Of a stretch of 64,000 nt of DNA, positions 12,801 through 15,729 are shown in pieces. Both the position numbers and the translations under genes were made by a program. The stretch's first letter is position 1. Every line of letters starts with the position of its first letter. The stretch is from assembly GCA_025642075.2 (NCBI GenBank), contig JAODUO010000053.1, positions 1,209,501 through 1,273,500 on the forward strand, in the 5' to 3' direction. Under the pieces are notes generated by a model. That model saw only the letters and a program-made list of their open reading frames with translations. It searched no databases and had not been told where the DNA came from. This stretch comes from Ridgeia piscesae (taxonomy: Eukaryota > Annelida > Polychaeta > Sabellida > Siboglinidae).

Positions 12801-15729
12801 GGAGAGAACAAGGTATGTTCATTTGTGTCAACTATACGGTGTCTTTACAGCGTCACATCATTGCTGTGTTTGATCTCTTAGTGTACTTTGACATGTTCTA
12901 AGTTTGTTAGCTGAGATTGGAGTGTTTCTGTACCGCCTATTTGGGTAAATGTTGTGTGTCTTGAGAAGATAACATATTTAAACTTAAGTAGCAAAATATT
13001 TTGGATTTATTCATGTTAGACATGTTTTTTATCATTTTATTTCTAATCACAAGTTAACTGCTAGAAGGTATGGGTTATCCTGAAAGTTTAGTGATCGAAA
13101 TTTGAGATAAAGTCAACGAATGTTATGGTAGCACAAATGTTGCTCCCGCATTGTCCACAAACACATGATGATGAGAAATGTCATGTTCTGCCACCAGGTG
13201 GCATACACATTTGATGCGGGACCGAATGCGTGTCTGTACTTGATGGAGGACATGGTGCCGACTATGCTTGGTCTCGTACAGAATTTCTTCCCCCCAGAGC
13301 AGGATCACGGAGAGGCCTTCCTTACTGGTCTCCCATCCAAGGTCTCCACTCCCTCCCAGGTGGGTGTCTTCCTCACTCGTCTCCCATCCAAGGTCTCCAC
13401 TCCCTCCCAGGTGGGTGTCTTCCTTACTCGTCTCCCATCCAAGGTCTCCACTCCCTCCCAGGTGGGTGTCTTCCTTACTCGTCTCCCATCCACGGTCTCC
13501 ACTCCCTCCCAGGTGGGTGTCTTCCTTACTGGTCTCCCGTCCACGGTCTCCACTCCCTCCCAGGTGGGTGTCTTCCTTACTCGTCTCCCATCCACGGTCT
13601 CCACTCCCTCCCAGGTGGGTGTCTTCCTTACTGGTCTCCCGTCCACGGTCTCCACTCCCTCCCAGGTGGGTGTCTTCCTTACTGGTCTCCCGTCCACGGT
13701 CTCCACTCCCTCCCAGGTGGGTGTCTTCCTTACTGGTCTCGCATCCACGGTCTCCACTCCCTCCCAGGTGGGTGTCTTCCTTACTGGTCTCCCATCCAAG
13801 GTCTCCACTCCCTCCCAGGTGGGTGTCTTCCTTACTGGTCTCCCATCCAAGGTCTCCACTCCCTCCCAGGTGGGTGTCTTCCTTACTGGTCTCCCGTCCA
13901 CAGTCTCCACTCCCTCCCAGGTGGGTGTCTTCCTTACTGGTCTCGCATCCAAGGTCTCCACTCCCTCCCAGGTGGGTGTCTTCCTTACTGGTCTCCCGTC
14001 CACAGTCTCCACTCCCTCCCAGGTGGGTGTCTTCCTTACTGGTCTCCCGTCCACAGTCTCCACTCCCTCCCAAGTGGGTGTCTTCCTTACTGGTCTCCCA
14101 TCCACGGTCTCCACTCCCTCCCAGGTGGGTGTCTTCCTTACTGGTCTCGCATCCATGGTCTCCACTCCCTCCCAGGTGGGTGTCTTCCTTACTGGTCTCC
14201 CATCCAAGGTCTCCACTCCCTCCCAGGTGGGTGTCTTCCTTACTGGTCTCGCATCCACGGTCTCCACTCCCTCCCAAGTGGGTGTCTTCCTTACTGGTCT
14301 CGCATCCACGGTCTCCACTCCCTCCCAGGTGGGTGTCTTCCTTACTGGTCTCGCATCCACGGTCTCCACTCCCTCCCAAGTGGGTGTCTTCCTTACTGGT
14401 CTCGCATCCACGGTCTCCACTCCCTCCCAAGTGGGTGTCTTCCTTACTGGTCTCGCATCCACGGTCTCCACTCCCTCCCAAGTGGGTGTCTTCCTCACTC
14501 GTCTCCCATCCACAGTCTCCACTCCCTCCCAAGTGGGTATCTTCCTCACTCGTCTCCCATCCACAGTCTCCACTCCCTCCCAGGTGAGTGTTCTTTCCAA
14601 TGTTACATTTGTGATGGTCAGGTGTGGTTCTGATGTCAATTTCTGGATGCACCAGTTGCACCTGTATTTGTAGTTCAACTATTTTCTTTAATGAATGTAT
14701 GATCCAGTTTCACGGATTGCTACATTTGAAACTTGTGTAAATCACTATTAAAAATGGAAGACTGAAATAACTCATCCTCGAGCGCCAGGGGTCGCTGTGA
14801 CTGATTATGTCACTACCAGCACTTATCTACCCCTGGCACATCCGTCTCAAATCACCCACAAGGAATGTGTCGTCCTCCGGTCATGTAATATAATATTTTG
14901 TGTGTGATTTCAGCCACAATGTTTACAAAGAGAATGAGTCATTATGTTGGGATTCCTGCAGGTCATGTATCCCCGTCTTCAACTAGTGGCAGATATTTAC
15001 GCTGTTCCCACGGCTGATGCAGTAGTGACTGGCAAAGCCAACTGCTACAGTTGTATAGTTCGACAGCTTAACAAAGACGACACCCTTGTGTAGTGTTGTA
15101 TTCCCGTTGCAGGGGAGTAGAGTATGCAGCTGCTGATGGCTGAAATGTTATCATGTCTGACTGTAGGAGCTGCTGAATGCAATACCATTGGAGCCAAGTG
15201 TTGGAGCCGTGCAGTACATCATCCACACCAAGGTACAACCTCTCAACTGTTACATGCAAATACTAAATAATAACCGAGTTACAATCCATGCATGCATGAA
15301 TATATGCAGGCATGCACATTACTTGATAGGAATATCTGCAGACAGAGTCATTCAAATTTACATTGAACTGTTTTTTTTATATAGTTAAATTTGACATTTA
15401 GATATAGAAATAGCATACTGAGACCGGGACAGTAAGGTTGCATAACAATAATGACAGAGTTATTTTAAGTTGTTCATGTATTTTATTATGTTATAATATT
15501 GTACAATGATTCCCGACTATGTCTGTATTACAGTTCGATCTGGACACTGCAGACTTAAAATAAAAACACAACAAATATAACCCAGACTCCAGTTTACAGC
15601 AAGGCAACAGAGCAATTTACAACCTCTCAACTGTTACCTTTGTAGGTGGGCCCTGGACCTCAGGTGCTGATTGACCAGTCTGAGTCATTGCTGGACAGCA
15701 CTGGTCAGCCTAAGTCATCAACTCAGTAG
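3862..15729 (+). CDS. MVD: Diphosphomevalonate decarboxylase (mevalonate pathway), complete, 12 exons
   Basis: Exons: 3862-3925, 4581-4651, 5225-5292, 6067-6113, 6724-6861, 8114-8168, 9543-9687, 11969-12139, 12690-12812, 13198-13359 (or a later donor up to 14583), 15167-15232, 15646-15729. All phases fit, and the short form is 397 residues, close to the roughly 400 of animal enzymes. The enzyme makes isopentenyl diphosphate from mevalonate diphosphate using ATP. Visible signatures: [18 protein letters not shown] at the N-terminus, the GHMP-kinase phosphate loop [20 protein letters not shown], then TFDAGPNA with the catalytic Asp, and VGPGPQVL near the end. Start: the only ATG before VTCTAPIN. 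Odd: introns 5, 6 and 7 hold tandem repeats, and the end of exon 10 is itself amplified into a 24-unit in-frame array of donor sites. Confidence 0.95.
4032..4135 (+). repeat. (TG)n microsatellite, about 50 units, MVD intron 1
   Basis: Uninterrupted TG dinucleotides about 110 bp downstream of the MVD exon-1 donor. Confidence 0.95.
4365..4421. repeat. (AT)n microsatellite, MVD intron 1
   Basis: Alternating AT tract of roughly 28 units, self-complementary. Confidence 0.95.
5824..5932. repeat. AT-rich palindrome followed by (AT)n, MVD intron 3
   Basis: A 34-bp perfect palindrome at 5839-5872 (half site TATACACATATGATATA) runs into a (TA)n tract from about 5889 to 5932. It may extrude as a cruciform. 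No function is indicated. Confidence 0.85.
6976..7432 (+). repeat. 24-bp minisatellite, about 19 units, MVD intron 5
   Basis: The unit is TGCCAAGACAGTGATGATGT plus GACA. Units differ at only a few positions (GATGAT/GATTAT, CATGCC/CAAGCC). The array starts about 115 bp after the exon-5 donor at 6862. Because 24 is a multiple of three, long open frames exist on both strands. These are a by-product of the repeat and not genes. Confidence 0.95.
8585..9500. repeat. Complex repeat field with inverted and direct copies, MVD intron 6
   Basis: Many copies of a motif like GGTGCATGCACTATGTGGCA followed by GTATGACTAGATT are scattered through the intron, each holding the palindrome TGCATGCA. A larger direct duplication is also visible: about 8625-8830 and 9012-9215 share an ordered series ending GTCAGTGAGTTAAAACCTAT. 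Around 9226-9358 copies lie in inverted orientation and could form hairpins. The last unit ends about 40 bp before the exon-7 acceptor at 9543. Confidence 0.85.
10366..10400 (+). pseudogene. Decayed duplicate of the start of MVD exon 8 (ghost exon)
   Basis: After a TGTCTAG acceptor this segment reads GTGAGGGTGAAGAAACATGT and then TGGGAGTATG, giving [10 protein letters not shown]. True exon 8 at 11969, after the same TGTCTAG, gives [11 protein letters not shown]. The copy has lost a codon and diverged, and it runs into the 21-bp array. It appears to be the left end of an ancient duplication of the intron 7/exon 8 junction. The resemblance is seen directly; the history is inferred. Confidence 0.75.
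10401..11968 (+). repeat. 21-bp minisatellite, about 74 units, made of exon-8 acceptor-like units, MVD intron 7
   Basis: The unit is AGCAGTGTTTGTGTTGTGTC plus T. Variants: TCTAG in most units, TCAAG in about twenty, and a GTGGTGGATCTAGCTG form dispersed through the array. The final TCTAG at 11964-11968 is the real 3' splice site of exon 8. Every TCTAG unit therefore presents nearly the same T-rich tract and AG. Long open frames cross the array on both strands but neither forward one joins the exon-8 frame. Less regular TGTCTAG-rich sequence precedes it from about 10,080. Confidence 0.95.
13198..14583 (+). CDS. MVD: MVD exon 10 in its longest possible form, with the donor-containing 51-bp array read in frame
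   Basis: The core exon (13198-13359) encodes [18 protein letters not shown] and continues to [14 protein letters not shown], where CAG|GTGGGT can serve as donor. Splicing there joins directly to [10 protein letters not shown] in exon 11 and matches normal MVD length. From 13360 the same exon end plus nine intron bases is repeated 24 times, and the frame stays open to 14583. There the donor is CAG|GTGAGT, a better consensus match than the GTGGGT of inner units. Use of the last donor would add 24 x 17 = 408 residues. Which donor is used cannot be told from DNA. Confidence 0.6.
13360..14583 (+). repeat. 51-bp minisatellite, exactly 24 units, each with a 5' splice site
   Basis: 1224 bp equals 24 x 51. 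Each unit starts GTGGGTGTCTTCCTTACTGG and ends TCCACTCCCTCCCAG. Units vary at a few positions (CCATCC/CCGTCC/GCATCC, AAGG/ACGG/ACAG, and CAG or CAA at the last exon bases). The unit boundary probably arose by exchange between CTTCC in the exon and CTTTCC in the intron. The minus strand is also open throughout, which is incidental. Confidence 0.97.

Follow-up and report, generated by a model that had tools for sequence, protein, structure and literature searches.

The diphosphomevalonate decarboxylase (MVD) gene of the annelid Ridgeia piscesae, which encodes an enzyme of the cholesterol pathway, carries 25 tandem copies of the junction between its exon 10 and intron 10, and every one of the 25 donors is in frame with the next exon. 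The array was found in a 64,000-nucleotide stretch of contig JAODUO010000053.1 (positions 1,209,501 to 1,273,500 of the forward strand; the window, to which all positions below refer). Judged from its DNA, the array is probably an unusually long 'mirage' minisatellite that leaves with intron 10 when splicing starts at the first donor; in-frame leakage to later donors is possible. The features concerned are as follows (a slash marks the exon-intron junction):

3862..15729, plus strand: MVD gene from start to stop codon, encoding 397 aa in 12 exons (spliced model and phmmer)
13198..13359, plus strand: MVD exon 10 ended at the first donor, 162 nt, aligned without gaps to mouse and human MVD across its join with exon 11
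13318..14592, plus strand: junction array of 25 x 51 bp, each unit with 14 codons of the exon 10 end and 9 intron bases
14581..14589, plus strand: last junction, CAG/GTGAGT, with its donor after 14583 and unique intron sequence beyond it
15167..15232, plus strand: MVD exon 11, the next exon for whichever array donor is used

The identity of the gene is given by its spliced product. All MVD introns in the spliced model have GT/AG borders, and the 397-aa product has full-length homology to solved MVDs, matching 3f0n (E 5e-155, residues 2-393 aligned) and 3d4j (E 5.2e-145, residues 3-394 aligned) in phmmer; we take these structures to be the mouse and human enzymes, respectively. A preliminary description of the stretch, made from the sequence alone, had placed the array in exon 10 of an MVD gene, and the spliced model and phmmer agree with it. 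With the first donor used in the model, exons 10 and 11 join without a gap against both 3f0n and 3d4j, in keeping with the earlier proposal that this donor alone gives an MVD of normal length (397 aa).

Each unit of the array crosses the exon-intron boundary, with 42 nt of the exon 10 end and 9 nt of the intron start, such that the last exon-like base of each junction falls at 13359 + 51n (n=0..24). Tandem Repeats Finder (TRF) places the array at 13317-14591, with a period of 51, 25.0 copies, 96% matches, 0% indels and a score of 2242; the sequence, TRF and a unit-by-unit count thus agree with the preliminary description that the 51-bp junction is repeated 24 more times, the copy number being that of a single assembly. 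The units have a mean pairwise identity of 94.4% (minimum 86.3%), with 10 of 51 columns variable and 14 distinct unit sequences. The junction reads CAG/GTGGGT in 18 of the 25 units, CAA/GTGGGT in six (units 15, 19 and 21-24) and CAG/GTGAGT in unit 25, as had been described (CA(G/A) before GTGGGT in units 1-24, CAG/GTGAGT in the last), and AG/GT is therefore kept in 19/25 units and AA/GT in 6/25. Adjacent units are more similar to one another than distant ones (rho -0.36, 0/300 permutations), which is the usual sign of minisatellite turnover and fits concerted turnover within the array.

Extra conservation of the donor core was considered and rejected, as 2/9 columns in CAGGTGGGT are variable, compared with 8/42 elsewhere in the unit. 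A G-quadruplex on the other strand of the array was likewise considered and rejected, since the 67 GGG runs there form no G3N1-7 four-tract motif. Differences among units do make most donors recognisable from the sequence that precedes them, with 100 nt before the donor identifying 21/25 donors (23 distinct tags, two of them common to pairs) and 150 nt identifying all 25.

Starting from any of the 25 donors, the reading frame is open through exon 11. If exon 10 is instead extended to 14583 and spliced from the last donor, 24.0 extra units, or 408 codons, are added and the product grows from 397 to 805 aa. The in-frame mRNA from any donor and the 408 added residues had both been predicted, and the related suggestion that repeat-number changes would not break the frame is right in principle, 51 bp being 17 codons. 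While the array itself is certainly beyond chance, the open frame is weaker evidence, because a period divisible by three has a one-in-three chance and because, among the 153 single-base changes of the consensus 51-bp unit, just one creates a stop. For the latter reason the lack of stops in the array is uninformative, and its use as a sign of selection was rejected.

From the anatomy of the array and the similarity of neighbouring units, we infer that a short segment made up of the exon 10 end and the first bases of the intron was duplicated in tandem, and that expansion with local homogenisation later brought it to 25 copies. The pre-mRNA would carry 25 donors, and the first of these is among the 18 that share one nine-base sequence. 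The spliceosome would most likely pick the first, exon-proximal donor, paired across exon 10 with the acceptor 162 nt away, a choice consistent with exon definition. The remaining copies would leave within an intron of 1807 nt, resulting in the normal 397-aa MVD. If a later donor were used by leakage, multiples of 17 residues would be inserted and no decay triggered. Such leakage would be cheap, because the unit is 17 codons without stops, and is probably not the function. Thus, mostly first-donor use is expected for MVD from the sequence, with leakage that may occur and would be harmless to the frame.

Two further junction arrays in the window that the preliminary description leaves unmentioned, one in intron 7 of MVD and one in the neighbouring minus-strand gene PRMT7, bear on the choice of donor or acceptor:

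10401..11968, plus strand: 21-bp array at the intron 7 acceptor (T-rich ... TCTAG or TCAAG), 74.7 copies by TRF
10352..10393, plus strand: a second intron 7/exon 8 junction, decayed, on the upstream side of the 21-bp array
21675..23208, minus strand: 29-bp array resembling the donor junction of PRMT7 exon 23505-23322, 52.9 copies by TRF

In the case of intron 7, each array unit ends in AG, mostly as TCTAG or TCAAG, and the array ends exactly at the exon 8 acceptor. A stop results from 74 of the 75 acceptor copies tested, and the remaining one is the real acceptor. For PRMT7, identified by matches of exon 23505-23322 to 3wst (E 1.8e-5) and 4c4a (E 6.3e-4), the following intron is 1666 nt long and mostly filled by the 29-bp array, and an open in-frame join is obtained from 0/47 NAG/GTR sites. 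Read from their frames, the surplus junctions in these two introns cannot be productively used, because they ruin the product; provided that both genes work, splicing there would mostly have to choose the exon-proximal copy. Exon definition would be a simple account, as additions on the intron side should leave the nearest cross-exon junction unchanged.

The intron 7 array repeats the intron side of its junction only, and its exon side alone showed no excess over shuffles (p 0.55, 1000 shuffles). The decayed copy at 10352-10393 scores 28 over the whole junction (shuffles: mean 8.1, max 14) and 14 on the exon side alone (shuffles: mean 6.5, max 12.5, 0/2000). In addition, the first nine bases of intron 7 (GTGAGTGCT, 9688-9696) are identical to the first nine of exon 8 (11969-11977). 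This is the pattern expected of an intron born by tandem duplication, and intron 7 could be one, although the identity may also be due to chance, exon 8 happening to begin like a donor. A 24-bp minisatellite at 6973-7433 lies 112 bp past the MVD exon 5 donor, with a unit unlike any tested junction.

Junction arrays were also sought more widely in the window. Nine long arrays were chosen from 57 TRF rows, and their units were compared with 47 junctions, a set that leaves out one PRMT7 exon, the phosphoenolpyruvate carboxykinase (PEPCK) exon and one upstream-gene exon. For five of the nine, one of the 47 junctions was clearly best (scores 35, 32, 20.5, 19 and 16; runners-up 13.5, 11, 9, 9 and 10), whereas no good match was found among these junctions for the 24-bp (6973), 44-bp (9320), 17-bp (40195) and 44-bp (42150) arrays (best 9, 9.5, 10 and 9, respectively). 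There are therefore about five splice-junction minisatellites in the 64-kb window, three of them in genes confirmed by homology (MVD has two and PRMT7 one); within MVD and PRMT7 alone, junction copies make up 3/5 arrays. Both kinds of boundary are represented, the 3' by the MVD acceptor array and the 5' by the MVD and PRMT7 donor arrays. The other two arrays flank a coding-like exon:

45852..46315, minus strand: donor-like 21-bp array of 22 copies, after a coding-like exon ending GAG/GTGGGA
46473..54021, minus strand: 43-bp array of 174.5 copies, 7.5 kb, adjoining the presumed acceptor of coding-like exon 46318-46485

Searches with exon 46318-46485 gave no Pfam or PDB match, and an open frame is obtained from 0/18 donors of the 45852..46315 array. 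On the exon side alone, the 51-, 29- and 43-bp arrays score above shuffles (p 0, 0.001 and 0.001, respectively; 1000 shuffles each), and the 21-bp array at 46315 shows no clear excess (p 0.085, 1000 shuffles). Over the whole junction, the 46315 array scores 20.5 where its shuffles reach 18.0 at most, and the 29-bp array 16 where its shuffles reach at most 15.0, a narrow excess in both cases.

The arrays also lie close to junctions. Five of ten array segments are within 25 bp of one, compared with 0.59 expected (0/4000 random placements), and at other cut-offs the counts are 4/10 within 5 bp (p 0.00025) and 6/10 within 50 bp. These figures are favoured by exon 46318-46485, which was picked out because arrays flank it, and three of the junctions are approximate. 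Moreover, the 29-bp array is counted through its closeness to the next acceptor (20 bp away) and not to the donor that its units resemble, which is 114 bp from the TRF boundary of the array. Elsewhere in the window, a long interspersed nuclear element (LINE)-like element at 55177-57555 (minus strand) contains endonuclease (PF03372) and reverse transcriptase (PF00078) sequences in separate open pieces, and the last coding piece of a GTP-type PEPCK gene lies at 61671-62174 (minus strand; PF00821, E 3.2e-56; PDB matches).

By its anatomy, the exon 10 array is a new, long, frame-compatible case of a described class. Mirage minisatellites are known in amphioxus from Adh3, the globins BflGb6 and BflGb9, PGBD5 and troponin C, and the excerpted text of PMC3087553 and PMC3902484 places them at 5' and 3' boundaries, with AG/GT in many units and with local homogenisation. 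According to excerpts of PMC3087553, Adh3 data and reverse-transcription PCR (RT-PCR) of the globins suggest that regular splicing is unaffected by mirages; the same excerpts give BflGb6 haplotypes with 6 and 3 units and mention somatic instability at Adh3, whose units are 10-72 bp in the excerpted literature. For lancelet PGBD5, similar repeats abut 5' splice sites in 2 to 7 copies, and mirages of Adh and troponin C are said to yield no aberrant mRNAs (PMC3902484, excerpts). The MVD array resembles these in that it spans an exon-intron boundary, in that many but not all of its units keep AG/GT, and in that neighbouring units are alike. It differs from them in that its 51-bp unit occurs 25 times, always in exact codon register and with the frame open from end to end, and in sharing its gene with an acceptor array of 75 copies.

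Introns are also said to have arisen from tandem arrays, that is, by the intron gain through tandem duplication reportedly described by Zhuo et al. in 2007. As cited in passages of PMC3087553 and PMC2812944, that process likewise makes repeated splice signals by tandem duplication, whereas in MVD a single junction has been multiplied and no intron has clearly been created. A third comparison is with human segmental-duplication genes, where, according to PMC2812944, internal tandem repeats at exon-intron boundaries can stay in the exon or be removed by splicing, frequently with both outcomes for one repeat, and coding cases are mostly in frame. Minisatellite expansion at such a boundary is common to both systems; however, the human variable repeats described there average 30-bp units x 4 and are nearly all supported by RNA, whereas the MVD array has 25 copies, seen in DNA. 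Extracts of other papers report intronic minisatellites in earthworm (PMC12783039), mention tandem repeats in amphioxus huntingtin (PMC2206037), and describe partial exons with splice sites inside introns for amphioxus VCBP3 (PMC2632668). Neither of two names for the MVD enzyme occurred in the matches listed when open-licence papers were searched with them, an absence that means little.

Several observations weigh against a mirage removed from the first donor. Near the exon 10/11 join, 6n10 and 1fi4, presumably the plant and yeast MVDs, carry six and three extra residues, respectively, and small inserts close to the join thus appear to be tolerated in some MVDs. Strength does not favour the first donor either. 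CAG/GTGGGT, the form shared by 18 donors, has a U1 duplex of -11.1 kcal/mol, rank 2 of the 22 donors compared, as against -11.9 kcal/mol for the last donor and -4.6 kcal/mol for the six CAA units. With a matrix built from the 21 other donors of the window, CAG/GTGGGT scores 10.14, above 17 of those 21, and the last donor 10.41. The earlier statement that the last donor is closest to consensus is borne out, though the difference is marginal. Splicing from the last donor would also leave an intron of 583 nt in place of 1807 nt, and the shorter intron would be the choice favoured under intron definition. The PRMT7 copies may be ignored for their strength and not their position, because 41 of the 47 have a U1 duplex of -8.2 compared with -11.5 for the true donor, which could by itself explain that case. 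In addition, two of the five junction arrays flank a coding-like exon without homology support. As for published cases, a Joint Genome Institute (JGI) model of lancelet PGBD5, without support from expressed sequence tags (ESTs) or mRNA, takes mirage repeats as exon (PMC3902484, excerpts), and in 66% of the human cases in which boundary repeats are intronic an alternative transcript retains the repeat (PMC2812944, as far as its excerpted text goes). The human figure and the 6n10 and 1fi4 residues, together with the leave-one-out acceptor scores given below, somewhat lowered, on checking, the confidence in a mirage spliced out from the first donor, a reading that is still held to be the probable one, and slightly raised that in two of its rivals.

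The first of these rivals, the isoform ladder put forward in the preliminary description, is that several donors are used, such that MVD is made with 0-24 inserts of 17 residues and copy number acts as a dial for protein length. The open frame at all 25 donors would permit this, as would the 18 identical donors, which rank near the top by U1 and matrix alike, and the human retained-repeat transcripts and the extra residues of 6n10 and 1fi4 point in the same direction. However, retention of the frame is what the period and the composition of the unit lead one to expect, and the intron 7 and PRMT7 arrays, both in genes confirmed by homology, are frame-incompatible. Published mirages are, moreover, suggested to leave regular splicing undisturbed (PMC3087553, excerpts), and as many as 408 residues of low complexity would be inserted where the Ridgeia piscesae, mouse and human enzymes align gap-free. 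The use of several donors is possible but, on this sequence evidence, unlikely and not the likeliest reading. The same doubt applies to its evolutionary form, in which leaky splicing along 25 in-frame, mostly equal-strength donors would make MVD length evolvable, with changes in repeat number tuning the 17-residue modules before the C-terminal segment.

It is very improbable that exon 10 truly extends to 14583, with all 25 units constitutively coding for an 805-aa MVD. Although the frame is open over the 24 extra units, and U1 pairing is strongest at the last donor, which also gives the shorter intron, there is no insert at the join in mouse and human MVD, and the surplus copies of the MVD intron 7 and PRMT7 arrays cannot be exonic. 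The exon would measure 1386 nt, compared with 47-171 nt for the other MVD exons.

Recursive splicing, whereby each unit is a ratchet site that serves as acceptor and donor (a branch-point-like CTTAC or CTCAC, a pyrimidine tract and CAG/GTGGGT), has little to commend it beyond these motifs. A yTnAy motif is present in 25/25 units, with its A at a constant place before the junction (offset 36), 13/15 bases before the CAG are pyrimidines in the array units displayed, and CAG/GT is found in 19/25 units. An acceptor matrix resting on 23 sites ranked the array units below all 23 when trained on those same acceptors. With leave-one-out scoring, which removes that bias, the best array units (4.7) equal or exceed 7/23 real acceptors, and the other 16/23 remain above the array maximum. 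The six CAA units fall below zero as acceptors, the array mean is reached by 66/249 decoy intronic AGs, and the pyrimidine tract is C-rich rather than U-rich. Recursive splicing is thus weakened and highly unlikely, if slightly less so than before the leave-one-out scores. Finally, inflation of the copy number, or of the array itself, by the assembly is equally hard to credit, for although the number rests on one assembly and the globin paper reports a mirage apparently aberrantly assembled in a draft genome (PMC3087553, excerpts), the array has 14 distinct unit sequences with locally ordered variants, an exact 51-bp register without indels and unique flanks on both sides, in a 64-kb window that holds further junction arrays.

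The observation is real and striking, and it is valuable as a clean test, set up by nature, of how donors are chosen. Eighteen identical donors on a 51-nt grid constitute a natural competition assay for choice among equal 5' splice sites, in which exon definition predicts use of the first donor, intron definition use of the last, and random choice a ladder of products; the unit variants, serving as tags, make the choice readable. The presence of about five junction minisatellites in 64 kb suggests that they are frequent in the Ridgeia piscesae genome, and the question of donor choice can therefore be put to many genes. Should the length of MVD indeed be set by repeat number, MVD isoform ladders would differ among alleles, and even among tissues; more widely, exon definition would let junction minisatellites spread, and the frame-compatible ones would form a reservoir of new coding sequence. 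If, on the other hand, the exon-proximal copy always wins, this would account for the genome's tolerance of such arrays and for their potential to give rise to new introns.

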